Of a stretch of 64,000 nucleotides of DNA, positions 24,861-35,561 are shown piece after piece (the stretch's first letter is position 1; every line of letters starts with the position of its first letter). Source of the DNA: Gammaproteobacteria bacterium (GTDB taxonomy: Bacteria > Pseudomonadota > Gammaproteobacteria > Thiohalomonadales > Thiohalomonadaceae). A program made the translations under genes and the position numbers. The stretch covers positions 1-64,000 of the forward strand of contig JANJXC010000111.1 of assembly GCA_024709225.1 (NCBI GenBank), written 5' to 3'. A model generated the notes under the pieces. It did no database searches. It was not told where the DNA came from and saw nothing but the letters and a program-made list of their open reading frames with translations.

Positions 24861-27743
24861 TCATTCCATCAACTCGCGCCAGATGCGCGACACCTGCGCG
24901 CGCAGCGCATCGAACTCACCGCCTGCCACCAGCGCCGGCTGCTCCAGCAGGGTCAGCCGGTGCACCTGGGCACGGTAGGCACGGTAGGCATCAGCAAGCA
25001 GTTCGGCGTCGGCCGGCAGCAGCTGCCCGGCCTCGGCCAGACGTTCGAGCAGGCGGATATTGTCGGTGAAATCGAGCAGGGCGGGGTGCGCGTGCGCCCA
25101 CGCCAGAACGCCATATTGCACCATAAATTCTATGTCCGCGATACCACCGGGGTCTTGTTTCAAATCGAATTTTTCCGCGCCGCCCTTGGCCAGCTGGCTA
25201 CGCATGCGCTCGCGCATTTCGCGCACCTCCTGGCGCAGTTTGTCGCGCTCACGGGGCCGCCCTAGGATCTCGCGCCGGATCTGCTCGAAGGCCTCGATCA
25301 CCGCCGGGTCGCCGGCCACGCCGCGGGCGCGCACCAGGGCCTGATGCTCCCAGGTCCAGGCCTCGGTGCCCTGGTAGGTGGCGAAGGCGTCCAGCCCGGA
25401 TACCAGCAGGCCGGAGGCGCCACTGGGCCGCAGGCGGGTATCCACCTCGTACAGCACGCCGGCCGGGGTGCGGGTGCCGAGGATGTGGATGATGCGCTGG
25501 GCCATGCGGGCGTAGAACACGGCATTGTCCACCGGCCGCTCGCCGTCGGTCTGGCGGCCTTCACTTTCGTTGCTGTGCAGGAACACGATGTCGAGGTCGG
25601 AGCCGTAGCCCAGCTCGATGCCACCCAGCTTGCCGTAGGCGATGATGGCGAAGCCGGTGTCGCAGGCCCGGTTGTCGCCGCAGGCGGGACGGCCGTGACG
25701 GCCGATCATGTGGCGCCAGGCCAGGGTCAGGGACTCATCCAGCAGCACCTCGGCCAGTTCGGTAAGGTGATCGCTCACCACCATCAGCGGCACCGCCTCC
25801 ATCACGTCGGCGGCGGCGACGCGCAGGGTGTTGGCCTGCTTGAAGTGGCGCAGGGCATCCATCTGCGCCTCCTGATCCTCGGGCGCCACGTACATCATGC
25901 GCTGGCGCAGTTCGTTGGACAGCGCCTTGCGCCGCGGCGGCGCATACAGCGAGCGCGGGTCGAGCAGCTCATCCAGCAGCAGCGGATACAGCGCCAGCTG
26001 CGAGGCGATCCAGGGTGAGGCGGCGCACAGCCGCACCAGCTGCGACAGGGCCATGGGATTTTCCACCAGCAGGGCCAGATAGGAACTGCGCCGGGCGATG
26101 GTCTCCACCAGATGCAGCAGCCGCTGCAGGGTGATGTCCGGCTGCTCGCCCTGGCCCACTGCACCAAGCAGCAGCGGGATCAGGTGATTCATGCGCGTAC
26201 GGCCCTGGGCGCTCAGGCTCAGAAAGGCGCGCCCCTGGCGCACCTGCTGCACCAGACGATAGACCTCGGCGGTATCGCCGTAGCCAGCCTGGGCCAGGGC
26301 GTGGCAGGCCTTCTCCTGGTCCAGGTTGCCCTGCCACACGCCGGTAAGATCCAGCGTGTCGGACTCGGCGTGCTCGGTCTGCGGCGCGGCAAACACCTGC
26401 TCGAAGTGTTGGTGCACGCGGTTCATGTGATCGCGCAGCACGGTCTCGAAGGCGGACCAGTCCGCATAGCCCATGCTCCAGGCCAGGCGCAGGCGGCCGG
26501 TCGCGTCCTCCGGCAGGTCATGGGTCTGGCGGTCCTGGTATTCCTGGATGCGATGTTCGGTGTTGCGCAGGAAGGTGTAGGACTCGGTCAGCTCGTCCAC
26601 CACGAAGTCGGGCAGCCAGCCGAAGCCGCGCAGGGCCTCCAGCACGGTGAGGATGCGGCGCACCTGCAGGGTCGGTTCGCGCCCGCCGCGGATGAGCTGG
26701 AAGGCCTGGCCGATGAACTCCACCTCGCGGATGCCGCCGGCGCCCAGCTTGACGTTGTCCTCCATGCCCTTGCGCTGCACCTCCCGGCCGATCATCGCCT
26801 TCATCTCGCGCAGCGACTGGAAGGCGCCGTAATCGACGTAGCGGCGGTAGACGAAGGGCTTGAGCATGGCCATCAGTTCGGCGCCGGCCTCCTTGTCCCC
26901 CGCCACCACCCGCGCCTTGATCATGGCGTAGCGCTCCCATTCGCGGCCATGCACCTGGTAGTAGTCCTCCATGGCATCGAAGGACAGGGCCAGGGCGGAA
27001 GACTCGCCGAAGGGGCGCAGGCGGGTATCGACGCGGAACACGAAGCCCTCGGCGGTGGTGCTGTTGAGCACGTTGCCGAGACGCTGGCCGAGACGGATGA
27101 AGAACTCCTGGTTGGAGGTGCTGCGCCGGCCGTCGCGGGTCTCGCCATCCTCCGGATAGGCCAGGATCAGATCCACGTCGGAGGAGAAATTGAGTTCGTG
27201 CGCGCCGAGCTTGCCCATGCCCAGCACCACCAGCCGCTGGGTCACGCCGTCGGCATTGCAGGGCGTGCCCCACTGCTCGCACTGCCAGCGGTAGAGGTGC
27301 TCCAGCGCCAGGTCGATGCAGGCATCGGCCAGGGCCGACAGGTCGGTCACCACTTCATTCAGTTCGCAGTGCCCGGCCAGGTCGCGCCAGGCGATGCGCA
27401 CCATTTCGCGGCGGCGGTAGCGGCGCAGTTGCACGCCCAGCTGCGCCTCGTCGGCCACGCCCTCGAGCAGGCCGGTCAGCTGCTGCCGGTAGTGCCCACG
27501 CGGGTAGCTGCGCGCCAGGTCGCCGCTGTGGTGCAGTTCCTGCAACATCTCGGGGTGGCGCACGCAGGCATCGGTGACGAACTCGCTGCAGGCCCACACC
27601 CTGGCCAGCTCGGCAAGAAATTCCGCTGGGAATGTGACAGCGGGGGCGCTCTCGCGCAGATGCTGCCATTGCCGCTGTACCCGCTCCTGCAGGGGCAGGG
27701 GGATGGCGCGCAGGGCGTCGCTGAAGGAGTGTTCGGGGGTCAC
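24861..27743 (-). CDS. glnE: Bifunctional glutamine synthetase adenylyltransferase/deadenylylase GlnE
   Basis: GlnE adenylylates and deadenylylates glutamine synthetase in response to PII and glutamine. The 960-residue protein (E. coli 946) has two nucleotidyltransferase domains. The N-terminal one shows GMGKLGAHELNFSSDVDLI and the C-terminal one YGKLGGIELGYGSDLDIVFL. Helical regulatory regions lie between and after. I start at the GTG at 27743, just before TPEHSFSDALR; the 44 upstream codons look like leader rather than protein. The ribosome-binding site is weak. No PII or glnA gene is nearby. Confidence 0.96.
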   Translation of the reverse strand: MTPEHSFSDALRAIPLPLQERVQRQWQHLRESAPAVTFPAEFLAELARVWACSEFVTDACVRHPEMLQELHHSGDLARSYPRGHYRQQLTGLLEGVADEAQLGVQLRRYRRREMVRIAWRDLAGHCELNEVVTDLSALADACIDLALEHLYRWQCEQWGTPCNADGVTQRLVVLGMGKLGAHELNFSSDVDLILAYPEDGETRDGRRSTSNQEFFIRLGQRLGNVLNSTTAEGFVFRVDTRLRPFGESSALALSFDAMEDYYQVHGREWERYAMIKARVVAGDKEAGAELMAMLKPFVYRRYVDYGAFQSLREMKAMIGREVQRKGMEDNVKLGAGGIREVEFIGQAFQLIRGGREPTLQVRRILTVLEALRGFGWLPDFVVDELTESYTFLRNTEHRIQEYQDRQTHDLPEDATGRLRLAWSMGYADWSAFETVLRDHMNRVHQHFEQVFAAPQTEHAESDTLDLTGVWQGNLDQEKACHALAQAGYGDTAEVYRLVQQVRQGRAFLSLSAQGRTRMNHLIPLLLGAVGQGEQPDITLQRLLHLVETIARRSSYLALLVENPMALSQLVRLCAASPWIASQLALYPLLLDELLDPRSLYAPPRRKALSNELRQRMMYVAPEDQEAQMDALRHFKQANTLRVAAADVMEAVPLMVVSDHLTELAEVLLDESLTLAWRHMIGRHGRPACGDNRACDTGFAIIAYGKLGGIELGYGSDLDIVFLHSNESEGRQTDGERPVDNAVFYARMAQRIIHILGTRTPAGVLYEVDTRLRPSGASGLLVSGLDAFATYQGTEAWTWEHQALVRARGVAGDPAVIEAFEQIRREILGRPRERDKLRQEVREMRERMRSQLAKGGAEKFDLKQDPGGIADIEFMVQYGVLAWAHAHPALLDFTDNIRLLERLAEAGQLLPADAELLADAYRAYRAQVHRLTLLEQPALVAGGEFDALRAQVSRIWRELME

Positions 27744-28124
27744 AATCGATCCAGCCTTGGGACAAGGAGGCCCGATTGTAGCGCATGGCAGAAAAAAAAC
27801 CGGGATTCGGACCGGGGCTGATTTCGGTCGAATCCCAGCCCAAGGTGGGGGAAAGGAGGATCCCCACAACAACATGCGGCCCGCGAACTTGGGGGACGGG
27901 CCGCACGCCCAAGCGTGGACACACCAAGCCCCTACTGAAAACAGTGTTAAAAATCAGGGGGCTTGCGTGCGTCGCCTGCGGGGTTAAGATGGACTGTGCA
28001 GCTTTTTTATTCCGGGCCGCCGGGAATGGAATATTGTTGCCGGCCGGACCATCTGTAGCTAACAAGGCGCAACAGACGCCATACAACAACAAGAACGACG
28101 ACACGAGCTTAAGTGGAGGAAAAC
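27744..28124. other. 381-base intergenic region with candidate promoter for the sigma factor gene
   Basis: This gap separates the divergent glnE and ECF sigma genes. It has no convincing ORF. TTGCGT (27963-27968), 16 bases, TAAGAT (27985-27990) is a possible sigma-70-type promoter towards the sigma gene. No site matching a typical GGAAC-type ECF autoregulatory promoter was recognised. Several short GC-rich hairpins occur, including one centred near 27880 (GGCCCGC...GCGGGCC-like). Confidence 0.35.
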
Positions 28125-28676
28125 ATGGGCATATTGGGGATGTTCTGCCGCTCGCACGATTTCAACAATCGTCTCGAGCAGAATCGCAAGCGGCTGTACC
28201 GGGTGGCCTATTCCTGGTGCCACAGCACCCACCTGGCCGACGACCTGGTGCAGGAGACCATGCTGCAGGCGATGAAGAGCGCCGCCAGCCTGCGCTCCTT
28301 CGAGGCCATGGACAGCTGGCTGTTCAGCATCCTGACCAACTGCTGGCGCGGCCATCTGCGCAGCCGCCGCGACCTGCAGGAGTTCGACGAAAACGAGTTC
28401 CAGAGCGACTCCAGCCCGGAGGACGCCAACCAGCAGATGCAGACCGTGCACCGGGTGCGCGGCGCGGTGGCGCAGCTGTCGCAGGGCCAGCGCGAGGTGC
28501 TCACCCTGGTCGACCTGGAGGGATTCAGCTACGCCGAGGTGGCGGAGATCCTGAGCATCCCCATCGGCACCGTGATGAGCCGCCTGTGCCGCGCGCGCCA
28601 GGCGCTGAAGGAAAAACTGATCGATGCGGCCGCGGCCGCCCCACACACTGAAATGAAGCTGGTGAGGGTCAAATGA
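28125..28676 (+). CDS. ECF-type RNA polymerase sigma factor
   Basis: The 183-residue protein has region 2 (LYRVAYSWCHSTHLADDLVQ, then ETMLQAMKSAASLRSFEAMD and SWLFSILTNCWR) and region 4 (LSQGQREVLTLVDLEGFSYA, then EVAEILSIPIGTVMSRLCRA). This is a compact two-domain group 4 sigma. ATG 28125 follows GGAGG. It overlaps the next gene by ATGA; that gene encodes its presumed membrane anti-sigma factor with a DsrE-like periplasmic domain. The pair is closed by a terminator. The regulon is unknown, but the partner's domain suggests sulfur or redox stress. Confidence 0.93.
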   Translation: MGILGMFCRSHDFNNRLEQNRKRLYRVAYSWCHSTHLADDLVQETMLQAMKSAASLRSFEAMDSWLFSILTNCWRGHLRSRRDLQEFDENEFQSDSSPEDANQQMQTVHRVRGAVAQLSQGQREVLTLVDLEGFSYAEVAEILSIPIGTVMSRLCRARQALKEKLIDAAAAAPHTEMKLVRVK

Positions 28677-29419
28677 CTACCCAACACTTCTCTGATGAGC
28701 AGCTGCACGCCTTCGTCGACGACCAGCTCGGTCCCGAGGAACAGGAGCAGATCTTTGTAGCGCTCAAGCAGGACGAGAACCTGAGTCGCAAGGTATGCGA
28801 GATCCGCCGCATGCAGGACATGGTGCGGCACGCCTATGCCGAGCCGCCGGCCGCGCCGACGCAGCCGACGCCGCAGCGCCGCTGGCGCCTGAGCGATGCC
28901 GTTGCGGCCTCCGTGCTGCTGGCAGTAGGTGCGCTGGCGGGCTGGTTTGCCAACGGGCCGCAACCGACCGCATCGGCGGTGCCGGAACAGACGGCCTATC
29001 AGCGCCAGGATCTGGATGCCTTCCAGACCGTACAGTTGCTGTCGGCCCAGGGCATGCAGCAGAACGTGGTGCTGCACATCACCACCAGCGATGCCGGCAA
29101 GCTGCGCTACGCCCTGGATGAAGTGGAGGCCCTGCTCAGCTCCTACCGCGCGCGCGGCATCCCCATCAAGCTGGAGGTGGTCGCCAACGGCGAGGGCATG
29201 GCCCTGCTGCGCTCCGACGTGTCGCCCTATCCGCAGCGCACCCGGGAACTGATCCGCAAGTACGACAACCTGGCAGTGGTGGCCTGCGCCAACACCCTGC
29301 GCTGGCTGCAGGACCAGGGCGTCGACACCCGCCTGCTGCCCGAGGTGGGCACCACCAAGTCCGGCCTGGAACGCGTGGTGGATCGGCTGCAGGAAGGCTG
29401 GCTCTACGTGAAGGTCTAG
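28673..29419 (+). CDS. Membrane anti-sigma factor fused to a periplasmic DsrE-like domain
   Basis: The 248-residue protein has three parts. Residues 1-55 resemble an anti-sigma domain (FSDEQLHAFVDDQLGPEEQE) but lack the zinc HxxxCxxC motif. Residues about 76-93 form one transmembrane helix (AVAASVLLAVGALAGWFA). Residues about 130-248 match the DsrE/DsrF-like pattern: NVVLHITTSDAGKLRYALDE, LEVVANGEGMALLRSD, a conserved Cys205 in VVACANTLRW, and GWLYVKV at the end. DsrE-family proteins carry or sense sulfur on a Cys. The orientation would place the DsrE domain in the periplasm. It is coupled to the sigma gene by a 4-base overlap. Calling the first part anti-sigma rests on both sequence and position. 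Confidence 0.85.
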   Translation: MTTQHFSDEQLHAFVDDQLGPEEQEQIFVALKQDENLSRKVCEIRRMQDMVRHAYAEPPAAPTQPTPQRRWRLSDAVAASVLLAVGALAGWFANGPQPTASAVPEQTAYQRQDLDAFQTVQLLSAQGMQQNVVLHITTSDAGKLRYALDEVEALLSSYRARGIPIKLEVVANGEGMALLRSDVSPYPQRTRELIRKYDNLAVVACANTLRWLQDQGVDTRLLPEVGTTKSGLERVVDRLQEGWLYVKV

Positions 29420-29465
29420 AAGGTAGATACAAGTTTCAAGATACAAGTTAAAAGTTAAAAACCAG

Positions 29466-29502
29466 AAAGCCCCGCCGGTGTGTGCCGGGTGGGGCTTTTT
29501 GT
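29466..29502 (+). terminator. Rho-independent terminator of the sigma/anti-sigma operon
   Basis: AAAGCCCCGCCGG and its partner CCGGGTGGGGCTTT form a hairpin ending in TTTTTG. It begins 47 bases after the anti-sigma stop. Confidence 0.88.
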
Positions 29503-29519
29503 TTGCGGGAAGCGAGGTG

Positions 29520-29602
29520 CATTCAAAATTCAAAATTCAAAATTCAAAATTCATTTGCCTCGCCATTTCGGAAGTCAACCTTAAATTTTGAATCTTGAAT
29601 TG
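29520..29602. repeat. AT-rich inverted repeat, family F
   Basis: The left arm is about four tandem units of ATTCAAA. The right arm (29581-29602) contains TTTTGAATCTTGAATTG. AT-rich and unlike the surrounding coding DNA. It lies between two convergent terminators. Confidence 0.75.
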
Positions 29603-29632
29603 ACGACCACGCAGATCGCAGAGCCCCCCCCC

Positions 29633-29666
29633 AAAAAAAAGCCCCGCCGGTCTCCCGGCGGGGCTC
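29633..29666 (-). terminator. Rho-independent terminator of groESL
   Basis: On the minus strand, AGCCCCGCCGGGAG-ACCGGCGGGGCT is followed by eight T. It begins about 25 bases after the groEL stop. It may also act weakly in the other direction. Confidence 0.9.
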
Positions 29667-29691
29667 TTTTACGCGTGGAGCGCGGTGGTGC

Positions 29692-31371
<1,680 letters not shown>

Positions 31372-31393
31372 TTAACGGTGGGACGGAGCGGGC

Positions 31394-31684
31394 TTAGCCC
31401 TCGATCACGCCCATCAGGTCTTCTTCGCGCATGACCAGCAGGGTCTCGCCATCGACCTTGACCTCGGTGCCGGCATACTTGCCGAACAGCACCTTGTCAC
31501 CGGCCTTCACGTCCAGGGCACGCACTTCGCCGTTCTCCAGGATCTTGCCCTTGCCCACGGCAACGACCTCGCCCTGAATCGGCTTCTCGGTGGCGCTGTC
31601 CGGGATCACGATGCCACCGGCGGACATCCGCTCCTCTTCCTTGCGACGAACAATCACGCGATCATGCAGGGGACGAATTTTCAT
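31394..31684 (-). CDS. groS: Co-chaperonin GroES
   Basis: The 96-residue protein has the family start [19 protein letters not shown], the mobile loop region [20 protein letters not shown] and the roof [10 protein letters not shown]. It caps GroEL as a heptamer. A ribosome-binding site (GAGGGTAA) lies upstream. The leader carries a perfect CIRCE operator, so HrcA regulation is expected; hrcA itself is not in the window. Confidence 0.99.
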
Positions 31685-31849: not shown

Positions 31850-32296
31850 TCAATCGTCTTCCCGTGTGTACTGCCCTTCCAGGGTGGCCGGGCCGCTGCG
31901 ACGGCCGGAGGCCGGTCTGCCGCCCTGCGGCGGGCGCGGAAAGCCGCGCCGCAACACCGCCGCCACCAGGGCATGGCGCAGCGGCGGCACCAGACCGAGC
32001 AGACCCAGCGCATCGGTGAAGAAGCCCGGCAGCAGCAGCAGGGCGCCGGACAGCAGGATCACCAGGCCCTCCAGCATGGCGGCCGTCGGCGCCTCCCCCT
32101 GCTGCACCAGGCGCTGCACCCGCTGCAGCGCGGTGAGGCCCTGATGGCGCAGCAGCAGGGTGCCGAACACGGCGGTGAACACCACCAGGGCGACGGTGGG
32201 GATGGCGCCGATCACCCCGCCGACCTGGATCAGCAGGTAGATCTCGATCACCGGCAACAGCAGCAGGCACAGGAATAAAAGGCGCGGCAGGGACAT
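31850..32296 (-). CDS. fxsA: FxsA-family membrane protein
   Basis: The 148-residue protein begins with a hydrophobic segment (LLFLCLLLLPVIEIYLLIQV), then GGVIGAIPTVALVVFTAVFG, and a later pair including GLVILLSGALLLLPGFFTDA. The IEIYLLIQVGGVIG and LLPGFFTDALGLL motifs are diagnostic of FxsA. In E. coli FxsA eases phage T7 exclusion by F plasmids; its normal role is unclear. The C-terminal tail is charged and cytoplasmic. It neighbours groESL on the same strand but has its own start upstream. Confidence 0.93.
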   Translation of the reverse strand: MSLPRLLFLCLLLLPVIEIYLLIQVGGVIGAIPTVALVVFTAVFGTLLLRHQGLTALQRVQRLVQQGEAPTAAMLEGLVILLSGALLLLPGFFTDALGLLGLVPPLRHALVAAVLRRGFPRPPQGGRPASGRRSGPATLEGQYTREDD

Positions 32297-32378
32297 CTCT
32301 ACTCTCGACAGCGGGGGAATTGACCGCCTGATTATGCCCGATGATGCGGCGGGACGGCGAATCCGATATCTTGCAGCG

Positions 32379-32702
32379 ATGCAGCACTACCTCGTCCTCA
32401 CCACCTGCCCGGACCTCGCTGGCGCCCGTCGCCTGGCCGACCTGCTGGTACGCGAGCGGCTTGCGGCCTGCGTCAACATCGTGCCGGTGGTGCATTCGGT
32501 CTACGAATGGCAGGGCGTGGTGCAGCAGGAGACGGAATGCCAACTGCTCATCAAGACCAGGAGTGAACGCTACGCCGCGCTGGAAGAGACCTTGCGCCGC
32601 AACCACCCGTATGAACTGCCGGAGATCATTGCTGTCCCACTGACGGCAGGCCTGCCGGCCTATCTCCACTGGATAAACCAACAAACGGAAAACACCGCAT
32701 GA
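32379..32702 (+). CDS. cutA: Divalent-cation tolerance protein CutA
   Basis: The 107-residue protein matches CutA1: LVLTTCPDLAGARRLADLLV, RLAACVNIVPVVHSVYEW, and the C-terminal YELPEIIAVPL with YLHWI. CutA forms very stable trimers with a ferredoxin-like fold. ATG 32379 matches the family start; 15 in-frame codons upstream are not used. It overlaps dsbD by ATGA, an arrangement common in gammaproteobacteria. Confidence 0.95.
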   Translation: MQHYLVLTTCPDLAGARRLADLLVRERLAACVNIVPVVHSVYEWQGVVQQETECQLLIKTRSERYAALEETLRRNHPYELPEIIAVPLTAGLPAYLHWINQQTENTA

Positions 32703-34930
32703 GAACCGTGCTGAAGTCCTGGCTTGCCCTCCTCGTCCTGTCCCTGTTCCTGACCACCCCCGCCCTGGCGGAGGAGGATGAGCTGCTGGCGCCGGAACAG
32801 GCCTTCGCGCTCAAGCTGACGGCGCTCGATGCCGCCACCCTGCGCGCGGAGTGGACTATCGCCCCGGGCTACTATCTATATAAGGAGCGCTTCAGCTTCA
32901 GCACCGACGCTCCCGGCGTCACCCTCGGCACACCCAGGTTCCCTGCCGGCAAGGTCAAGCAGGACGAATTTTTCGGCAAGGTGGAAACCTATGCCGGCCG
33001 CATCGTCGTCGACATCCCGCTGACCCGCACCGCCGCGGCACCCGCCAGCTTCGACGTCACCGTCGGCTCCCAGGGCTGCGCCGAGATCGGCGTGTGTTAC
33101 CCACCGCAGCGCAATACCGTCAAGGTCAACCTGCCGGCAAAGGCGGCCGCTGCCCCGGCCAAGGCGTTGACCCCGCTGCAGCAGACGCTGGGCGCAGCCG
33201 CCCAGGACGACGACGTGCTGGATCCCGAGGTGGCCTTCCGCTTCGCTGCCGACGTCAGCGCCGATGCCGTCACCCTGCGCTGGCAGATCGCCCCCGATCA
33301 CTATCTGTATAAGGACAAGTTCACCTTCCAGCTGAAGGACGGCAGCGCCGCCAGCCTGGGCAGCTACACCCTGCCCGCCGGCGAGGAGAAGAATGACGAG
33401 TTCTTCGGCCGCATCTTCGTGTTCCACGACGCGGTGGAGCTGACCATCCCGCTGCAGCGCAGCGGCCAGGGCGCCGCCACCCTGCTGGTGAGCTATCAGG
33501 GCTGCGCCGAAGTGACCGGCATCTGCTATCCACCGATCCGCAAGGAGGTGAATCTGGACCCGGCCGCTGCCGCCGTCAGCACCGCCGTCGCGGCACCGGC
33601 CACCACGGCGGCGGCGGCGCCGCAGTCGGAACAGGATTCCCTCGCCGCCGCCCTGGCCGGCGACAACCGCCTGCTCACCGTGCTCACCTTCCTCGGCCTC
33701 GGCCTGCTGCTGGCCTTCACCCCCTGCGTGTTCCCGATGATCCCGATCCTGTCCAGCATCATCGTCGGCCAGGGCGCGGGGCTGACCACGCGCCGGGCCT
33801 TCATCATGTCGCTGGTCTACGTGCTGGCCATGGCACTGACCTACACCGTGGCCGGCGTACTGGCCGGCCTGTTCGGTGCCAACCTGCAGGCGGCATTCCA
33901 GAACGTGTGGATACTGGGAAGCTTCAGCGTGGTATTCGTGCTGCTGGCCCTGTCCATGTTCGGCTTCTATGAGCTGCAGCTGCCCTCGGCGCTGCAGACC
34001 AAGCTGAGCGAGATCTCCAACCAGCAGCAGGGCGGCAGCCTCATCGGCGTGGCCATCATGGGCCTGCTCTCTGCGCTGATCGTCGGCCCCTGCGTGGCAC
34101 CGCCGCTGATGGGTGCGCTGATCTACATCGGCCAGACCGGCGACGCGGTGCTGGGCGGCCTGGCCCTGTTCGCCCTGTCCATCGGCATGGGCGCACCGCT
34201 GCTGCTCATCGGTACCTCGGCGGGCAAGCTGCTGCCGCGCGCCGGCGGCTGGATGAACGCCATCAAGGCAGTGTTCGGCGTGATGTTGCTGGCGGTGGCG
34301 CTGTGGATGCTGGAGCGCGTGCTGCCGGCCTTCATCACCATGCTGGCCTGGGCGCTGCTCATCATCATCTCCGCCATCTACATGGGCGCGCTGGAACCGC
34401 TCAAGGACGGCGCCTCCGGCTGGAGCAAGCTGTGGAAGGGCCTCGGCCTGGCCCTGCTGATCCACGGCGCCCTGCTGCTGGTGGGCGCCGCCGCCGGCGG
34501 CAACGACCCGCTGCAGCCGCTGCGTGGCGTGGGCTTCGGCGGCGGTGCAACGGCCCAGGCCGCCAAGCTGGAGTTCCGCAAGGTGAAGACCGTGGCCGAG
34601 ATGGAACAGGCCGTGGCCGCCGCCGCCGCCCAGGGCAAGCCGGTGATGCTGGACTTCTATGCCGACTGGTGCGTGTCCTGCAAGGAATTCGACAAGTACA
34701 CCTTCTCCGATGCCGGCGTGATCCAGGCCCTGTCCGGCGCCGTGCTGCTCAAGGCCGACGTCACCGCCAACGACGACGCCGACCAGGCCATGCTGCGCCA
34801 CTTCAAGCTCATCGGCCCGCCCAGCCTGCTGTTCTTCGGCGCCGACGGCCAGGAGCGCCAACCGTTCCGCGTGGTGGGCTTCATGGGACCGGAAGAATTC
34901 CGCGCCCATGTGGAGCGCGCACTGCGTTAA
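32699..34930 (+). CDS. dsbD: Thiol:disulfide interchange protein DsbD with duplicated N-terminal domain
   Basis: DsbD moves electrons from cytoplasmic thioredoxin to periplasmic proteins. The 743-residue protein (E. coli 565) has a signal peptide (1-24) and then two tandem nDsbD-like domains. The first has Cys127/Cys133 in GCAEIGVCYPP; the second has Cys269/Cys276 in GCAEVTGICYPP. The membrane domain has the redox Cys in FTPCVFPMIP and GPCVAPP. A C-terminal thioredoxin domain has WCVSCKEF. The extra N-terminal domain explains the length and suggests more or different periplasmic acceptors. It is coupled to cutA and followed by a TlpA-like gene. Confidence 0.95.
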   Translation: MRTVLKSWLALLVLSLFLTTPALAEEDELLAPEQAFALKLTALDAATLRAEWTIAPGYYLYKERFSFSTDAPGVTLGTPRFPAGKVKQDEFFGKVETYAGRIVVDIPLTRTAAAPASFDVTVGSQGCAEIGVCYPPQRNTVKVNLPAKAAAAPAKALTPLQQTLGAAAQDDDVLDPEVAFRFAADVSADAVTLRWQIAPDHYLYKDKFTFQLKDGSAASLGSYTLPAGEEKNDEFFGRIFVFHDAVELTIPLQRSGQGAATLLVSYQGCAEVTGICYPPIRKEVNLDPAAAAVSTAVAAPATTAAAAPQSEQDSLAAALAGDNRLLTVLTFLGLGLLLAFTPCVFPMIPILSSIIVGQGAGLTTRRAFIMSLVYVLAMALTYTVAGVLAGLFGANLQAAFQNVWILGSFSVVFVLLALSMFGFYELQLPSALQTKLSEISNQQQGGSLIGVAIMGLLSALIVGPCVAPPLMGALIYIGQTGDAVLGGLALFALSIGMGAPLLLIGTSAGKLLPRAGGWMNAIKAVFGVMLLAVALWMLERVLPAFITMLAWALLIIISAIYMGALEPLKDGASGWSKLWKGLGLALLIHGALLLVGAAAGGNDPLQPLRGVGFGGGATAQAAKLEFRKVKTVAEMEQAVAAAAAQGKPVMLDFYADWCVSCKEFDKYTFSDAGVIQALSGAVLLKADVTANDDADQAMLRHFKLIGPPSLLFFGADGQERQPFRVVGFMGPEEFRAHVERALR

Positions 34931-35045: not shown

Positions 35046-35561
35046 ATGCACCGTCTGTTGCCCGTCCTGGCCCTGGGGGCCATCCTGTTCACCGCCGGTT
35101 GCGGCACGGAAAGCAATGCCGTGCCGGTCGCGCCGGCGCCCCAGGCCGCGGCGCCCATCGCGTTCAACTTCCCCGATCTGGAAGGCAAACAGCGGGATAT
35201 GAGTGAATGGTCCGGACAGGTGGTGCTGGTCAACTTCTGGGCTCCCTGGTGTCCGCCCTGCCGCAAGGAGATGCCGGCGCTGATGGAACTGCAGGAAAAA
35301 TACGCCGGCCGCGGCCTTACCGTGGTCGGTATCACCATCGATACCCAGGAAAATGCGCAGAACTTCGCCGACAGCCTGGGCATCAACTTCCCCATCCTCA
35401 TCGGCGAGGATGGCGGCCTGGAACTGGCCCAGACCCTGGGCAACAAGGTGGGCGCCCTGCCCTATACCGTGGTGCTGGACCGCCAGGGCCGCGCCGCCTA
35501 TACCCACCGCAGCGAAATCACCCTGCAGCAGGCCGAACAGGCCGTGCTGCCCTTGTTGTAA
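35046..35561 (+). CDS. TlpA-family thioredoxin-like lipoprotein
   Basis: The 171-residue protein has a lipoprotein signal ending in the lipobox FTAGC (Cys19), then a thioredoxin fold with NFWAPWCPPCRKEMP. The family insert GLTVVGITIDTQENAQNFAD and the cis-Pro ALPYTVVLD are present. It would be a periplasm-facing, membrane-anchored disulfide reductant, probably recharged by the adjacent DsbD. Related proteins serve cytochrome c maturation or oxidative defence; the target is not evident. Confidence 0.93.
   Translation: MHRLLPVLALGAILFTAGCGTESNAVPVAPAPQAAAPIAFNFPDLEGKQRDMSEWSGQVVLVNFWAPWCPPCRKEMPALMELQEKYAGRGLTVVGITIDTQENAQNFADSLGINFPILIGEDGGLELAQTLGNKVGALPYTVVLDRQGRAAYTHRSEITLQQAEQAVLPLL

Follow-up and report, generated by a model that had tools for sequence, protein, structure and literature searches.

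Results and discussion

An ECF sigma factor and a membrane-spanning anti-sigma factor

This locus raises the question of whether a sulfur-oxidizing bacterium might report sulfur outside its inner membrane to its transcription machinery through two genes alone, one encoding an ECF sigma factor and the other an anti-sigma factor with a DsrE-like domain in the periplasm. The window (the whole stretch of DNA that was analysed, 64,000 nucleotides) holds both genes; their coordinates and ATGA overlap, as given in the initial annotation, proved right when checked on the sequence (the sigma stop codon TGA lies at 28674-28676 and the anti-sigma start codon ATG begins at 28673). All features discussed here are collected in Table 1. 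The sigma protein matches Sigma70_r2 (2.4e-14) and Sigma70_r4_2 (2e-17) in Pfam, and TIGR02937 above the cut-off in NCBIfam. Sigma70 regions 2 and 4 are thus present and regions 1 and 3 absent, which marks the protein as an ECF sigma factor; the adjoining anti-sigma gene and a predicted autoregulated promoter (from gene order and promoter motif, respectively) support this assignment.

Table 1. Positions and supporting evidence for the features of the sigma/anti-sigma locus and its predicted targets in the window
Feature	Position	Strand	Description	Evidence
Candidate sigma-dependent small RNA	27791..27980	-	About 190 nt, ends in hairpin and T-run before glnE	Folding, conserved structure
Divergent promoter with the same motif (predicted)	27987..28013	-	GGAATAAAAAAGCTGCACAGTCCATCT, faces glnE	Conserved throughout the genus (five genomes)
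Autoregulatory promoter (predicted)	28028..28054	+	GGAATATTGTTGCCGGCCGGACCATCT (GGAATA-N16-CATCT), before sigma gene	Motif statistics, own-genome scan
ECF sigma factor gene	28125..28676	+	183 aa; regions 2 and 4 only	Pfam
Anti-sigma factor gene	28673..29419	+	248 aa; predicted to have an anti-sigma domain in the cytoplasm, a single transmembrane helix and a DsrE-like domain in the periplasm	ATGA overlap, family alignment, topology
Transmembrane helix	28898..28951	+	Residues 76-93	Hydropathy maximum; positive-inside bias of homologues
DsrE-like domain	29063..29413	+	Residues 131-247	Profile matches to MTH1491 and ST0148; phmmer 8.9e-7
Invariant Cys205 codon	29285..29287	+	Cys in 85/85 homologues	Aligns with Cys of MTH1491 and ST0148
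Further promoter with this motif, before cutA-dsbD (predicted)	32272..32298	+	GGAATAAAAGGCGCGGCAGGGACATCT	Own-genome scan; also in genomes G002, G003 and G004
cutA	32376..32702	+	First gene of predicted target operon	CutA1 7.8e-38
dsbD	32699..34930	+	Periplasmic thiol-reductant supply, predicted target	NF001419 2.1e-228; motif upstream of cutA
TlpA/ResA-like secreted thioredoxin	35046..35561	+	Possibly in cutA-dsbD target operon	Gene directly after dsbD in G003

The N-terminus of the anti-sigma protein lacks the zinc motif HxxxCxxC on inspection of its sequence, as had been noted, and its likeness to known anti-sigma domains is weak (zf-HC2 is matched in 15 and RseA_N in three of 23 homologues, none strongly, and the window protein's own match falls below the Pfam cut-off). 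By analogy with its anti-sigma class, this domain probably sequesters the sigma factor. A Pfam match to DUF6264 at residues 56-134 was rejected, being below the cut-off and spanning the linker and the helix. Hydropathy has one peak at residues 76-94, close to the single helix (about 76-93) proposed at the outset, and lysine and arginine are more numerous before the helix than after it in 72 of the 75 homologues with a clear helix, which points to an N-in/C-out orientation with the DsrE-like domain in the periplasm, where the initial annotation had placed it. The predicted single-pass N-in topology is common in class I anti-sigma factors and is not required of them.

The C-terminal domain is DsrE-like by homology. 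The initial annotation had left room for a profile search to place it outside the DsrE superfamily; instead, a profile of 23 full-length homologues matched MTH1491 (1l1s, 1.6e-22) and ST0148 (2pd2, 1.4e-13) across the domain among PDB sequences, a phmmer search with the window protein found MTH1491 at 8.9e-7, and Pfam DsrE matches eight of the 23 family members (best 1e-6). For the window protein alone, Pfam and NCBIfam name no C-terminal domain. Cys205, singled out earlier as the one conserved cysteine, is invariant in all 85 full-length homologues, as is W243, while most other residues vary; from the alignment, it would occupy the sulfur-accepting position. AlphaFold models were unusable (mean pLDDT 40 for the full-length protein from a single sequence, and 44 for the domain with three close sequences), and the DsrE fold therefore rests on sequence profiles. 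We know of no tested function for MTH1491 or ST0148.

Distribution and gene order

The search for the same fusion in other genomes, suggested at the outset, found it at full length in 67 of 369 sampled genomes of the class, belonging to 39 families. A sample of 199 genomes from the phylum gave full-length matches in two, both of the same class, and partial matches on the DsrE side in other classes; a plasmid search gave no full fusion, only partial DsrE-like matches, two of them annotated 'DsrE family protein'. The resulting set comprises 82 loci with 85 fusion copies. By script, the sigma gene lies directly upstream of the anti-sigma gene in 83 copies, and the remaining two reflect the edge of a contig and a wrongly placed ORF start; the two genes adjoin in every homologous locus uncut by a contig end.

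Among the 72 loci longer than 8 kb, 48 contain a secreted stand-alone DsrE gene and 38 a porin gene (Porin_4/Porin_O_P type), often divergent from the sigma gene. The secreted DsrE proteins have the equivalent cysteine in 68 of 68 cases and a hydrophobic start in 66 of 68. Some homologous loci have no secreted DsrE partner of any kind, and the window genome lacks the porin and carries no DsrE gene linked to the pair; its unlinked DsrE genes lack the promoter motif described below. Two arrangements stand out individually: locus L035 (G003:C140) has two diverged sigma/anti-sigma pairs about 3 kb apart, one of them of the window type, with DsrE and porin genes between them, and in L190 (G207:C18:73800-86500) the two types of secreted DsrE gene form a tandem next to the pair. 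In the window the pair is followed by groEL-groES (29692-31684, minus strand) and then by cutA-dsbD (32272-34930), an order that recurs after the pair in L150, L153 and L156, from other families.

A shared promoter motif and its predicted targets

The pattern GGAATA-N15/16-C[G/A]TC[T/C] occurs upstream of 55 of the 85 sigma genes, against 0.15 expected from shuffled sequences, and of 26 of 44 dsrE1 genes, against 0 in shuffles; the motif-bearing sequences are related, so these counts are not independent. A looser pattern applied to the 85 sigma genes gave 13 sites with a spacer of 15 and 55 with a spacer of 16, compared with 0-3 for each other spacer from 8 to 25. This strict spacing, together with the divergent dsrE1 promoters, argues that the motif is functional.

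Scanning the window genome with GGAATA-N15-17-CRTCT returned 15 sites, none with a spacer of 17, and the pattern read backwards occurred 0 times. Eight of the 15 sites are in promoter position; those at L192, L193, L195, L197 and L203-L205 lie inside coding sequence and were taken as chance. Within the window the predicted targets are the sigma gene, a divergent site and cutA-dsbD(-tlpA). Elsewhere in the genome they are a YeeE/YedE (YeeE/SoxT-type) sulfur transporter (PF04143, 1.3e-55), a secreted SoxH-related metallohydrolase (TIGR04558, 7.5e-47, below its cut-off), a secreted periplasmic thioredoxin-like protein, an HbpS-like secreted protein and a chemotaxis receptor. Two or three more genomes of the genus also have the sites for the transporter, the hydrolase, the thioredoxin and cutA-dsbD, and the one before cutA-dsbD is found in another family as well (L153). 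A shared promoter motif near sulfur-related genes, which the initial annotation had proposed looking for, is present. The sites before the chemotaxis receptor and the HbpS-like protein lie at G000:C82:29856 and G000:C86:1235 (L201, L202), and a link between chemotaxis and sulfur sensing through the receptor site is possible.

The divergent site in the window precedes a stretch (27791-27980, minus strand) with a minimum free energy of -95.1 kcal/mol (z = -5.9) and a structure in which eight pairs show two-sided changes across sequences from five species. Both the promoter motif and the strong structure are common to the five genomes of the genus, and a conserved TACAAT lies between the stretch of about 190 nt and glnE; Rfam gave no match above cut-off over 27500-29900. 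The stretch may encode a sigma-dependent small RNA, for which these features make it a candidate.

Association with sulfur oxidation

In two loci (L176 and L164), soxX, soxY, soxZ, soxA and soxB come directly after the anti-sigma gene and on its strand, and the Sox proteins of L176 score above NCBIfam cut-offs. A third locus, L182 (G182:C3:90700-103400), brings together soxYZAB, two secreted DsrE genes, an HbpS-like gene, the sigma pair, a porin, a secreted thioredoxin and a YeeE gene, with SoxA and SoxB above NCBIfam cut-offs; these gene classes are the ones picked by the motif in the window genome, and synteny found them independently. SoxB is present in 66 of 67 fusion genomes and in 87 of 302 others (p = 8e-29, inflated by shared ancestry), and dsrA in 52 of 67 and 64 of 302 (p = 4e-18, inflated likewise); the control gene nosZ is found in 13 of 67 and 22 of 302 (p = 0.004, inflated by kinship too). 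The single fusion genome without SoxB (G074) has dsrA, and the window genome has both. The switch thus occurs almost only in sulfur oxidizers, and it adjoins, and apparently controls, sulfur-oxidation genes, as judged from motif targets, sox synteny and SoxB co-occurrence, all of which point to a sulfur-oxidation regulator. The sulfur-oxidizer context assumed initially is borne out by these data. Promoter, targets, synteny and SoxB distribution together give good support to the central proposal, in which an ECF pair with a DsrE-like sensor in the periplasm acts as a switch for sulfur oxidation.

Proposed mechanism and alternatives

We propose that the ECF sigma factor and its anti-sigma factor form a switch that specifically serves sulfur oxidation in the periplasm, with a DsrE-like sensor triggered at Cys205, and consider this moderately likely. 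The anti-sigma factor would hold the sigma factor at the inner membrane while its DsrE-like sulfur-carrier domain exposes Cys205 to the periplasm. Reduced or sulfane sulfur would reach Cys205 as thiosulfate, tetrathionate or polysulfide, or from a persulfidated carrier (candidates are a secreted DsrE protein and SoxY), and a conformational change in the anti-sigma factor, or its regulated proteolysis, would then release the sigma factor. Once freed, the sigma factor would transcribe its own operon from GGAATA-N15/16-C[G/A]TCT promoters, along with genes for sulfur uptake and handling (in the window genome the YeeE/SoxT-type transporter, the SoxH-like hydrolase, the periplasmic thioredoxin and cutA-dsbD; in relatives secreted DsrE, porin and soxXYZAB). 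The proposal builds on features that were computed (the pair, domain homology, topology bias, invariant cysteine, motif, targets, synteny and SoxB co-occurrence); sequestration and release of the sigma factor are probable from knowledge of the family, and we infer that the trigger is sulfur bound at Cys205.

A sulfur adduct on Cys205 would be the simplest signal, given a periplasmic DsrE domain, an invariant cysteine and the periplasmic Sox system of the hosts. DsrE3A, a relative from another branch of the DsrE proteins, binds thiosulfate groups on cysteine, taken from tetrathionate, and is unreactive with polysulfide, thiosulfate and glutathione persulfide (PMC4175335); the ligand may therefore not be a persulfide donor, and a thiosulfonate is as good a guess as a persulfide. 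A secreted DsrE partner and the usual anti-sigma cleavage may intervene between signal and sigma release, which the initial annotation had pictured as a single step, and the secreted protein may be donor, competitor or merely target. In its most specific form the proposal describes a one-protein sensor, in which Cys205 takes up sulfane sulfur or a thiosulfate group and frees the sigma factor, turning on periplasmic oxidation (soxXYZAB in some species) and the divergent small RNA; we would put this at slightly below an even chance.

The direct signal might instead be the secreted DsrE protein and not free sulfur. Loaded or empty, it would dock on the anti-sigma DsrE domain or swap sulfur with it and so set sigma release, the subunits associating as in DsrEFH and the common promoter type creating feedback. 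The frequency of its gene beside the pair, the shared invariant cysteine and the motif at dsrE1 genes all favor such a scheme. Against it, some loci lack the partner entirely, and in the window genome no DsrE gene is linked to the pair and the unlinked ones are without the motif; we think it unlikely. The DsrE-like domain could also serve as a docking or dimerisation module without sulfur chemistry, the signal being another, such as proteolysis at the linker. Many anti-sigma factors have periplasmic domains without ligand chemistry, and neither the AlphaFold models nor the PDB matches offer a functional hint; the invariance of Cys205 amid otherwise variable residues makes this very improbable.

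A broader reading is a general envelope or thiol-stress response of the RpoE/RseA type, which sulfur oxidizers would merely need more than other bacteria, the DsrE domain sensing redox state or outer-membrane protein folding. The targets do include dsbD, thioredoxins and a porin, and the candidate divergent small RNA resembles the small RNA arm that the RpoE response has. The distribution tracks SoxB, however, in L164 and L176 the sigma pair stands in front of soxXYZAB, and the YeeE transporter and the SoxH-like hydrolase are not envelope-folding genes, so we regard a general stress response as quite improbable.

Relation to known systems and significance

The proposed sulfur-oxidation switch resembles ECF sigma factors that have a membrane-bound class I anti-sigma factor (RpoE-RseA, SigW-RsiW). 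It shares with them an operon of two genes, a sigma factor with regions 2 and 4, an anti-sigma factor that crosses the membrane once and an autoregulated promoter, and differs from them in its periplasmic DsrE-like sensor domain and sulfur-oxidation regulon. DsrE is unmentioned in a review of ECF sigma factors (PMC8103513) and a survey of anti-sigma factors (PMC7406223). In Hyphomicrobium denitrificans, SoxR/SoxT1B and sHdrR control sox genes by sulfur availability, with a YeeE-like protein in the circuit (PMC11582611, PMC10451225); sulfur-dependent sox control and the involvement of a YeeE-like protein are shared with the system proposed here, whereas the sensor of sulfane sulfur there is a cytoplasmic ArsR-type repressor and here would be a periplasmic domain acting on a sigma factor. 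RpoE1 and RpoE4 of Sinorhizobium meliloti, ECF sigma factors reported to be activated in response to sulfite (PMC3511301), offer a parallel in answering a sulfur compound. Arcobacter ECF pairs were dropped as a precedent, with no stated link to sox or DsrE. The domain itself resembles MTH1491, ST0148, DsrE3A and DsrEFH in whole-domain sequence homology and the conserved cysteine; the DsrE proteins studied are cytoplasmic sulfur carriers, in contrast to the fusion to an anti-sigma factor and predicted periplasmic location found here. Our search of mainly open-access literature found no account of DsrE or sulfane sulfur with an anti-sigma factor, nor of an ECF sigma factor with sox; a prior mention elsewhere is possible.

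A sigma switch with a periplasmic DsrE sensor thus appears to be a route, so far undescribed, by which these bacteria could detect sulfur beyond the cytoplasm. The way regulators perceive external sulfur has been called poorly understood (PMC11582611). Present in 39 bacterial families and almost restricted to genomes with SoxB, the fusion is a concrete sensor candidate, in which one candidate cysteine, a well-defined promoter sequence and a list of predicted targets are open to testing. If the proposal is true, a one-protein sensor would detect sulfur outside the cytoplasm without importing it, and the DsrE family would have a signaling role.
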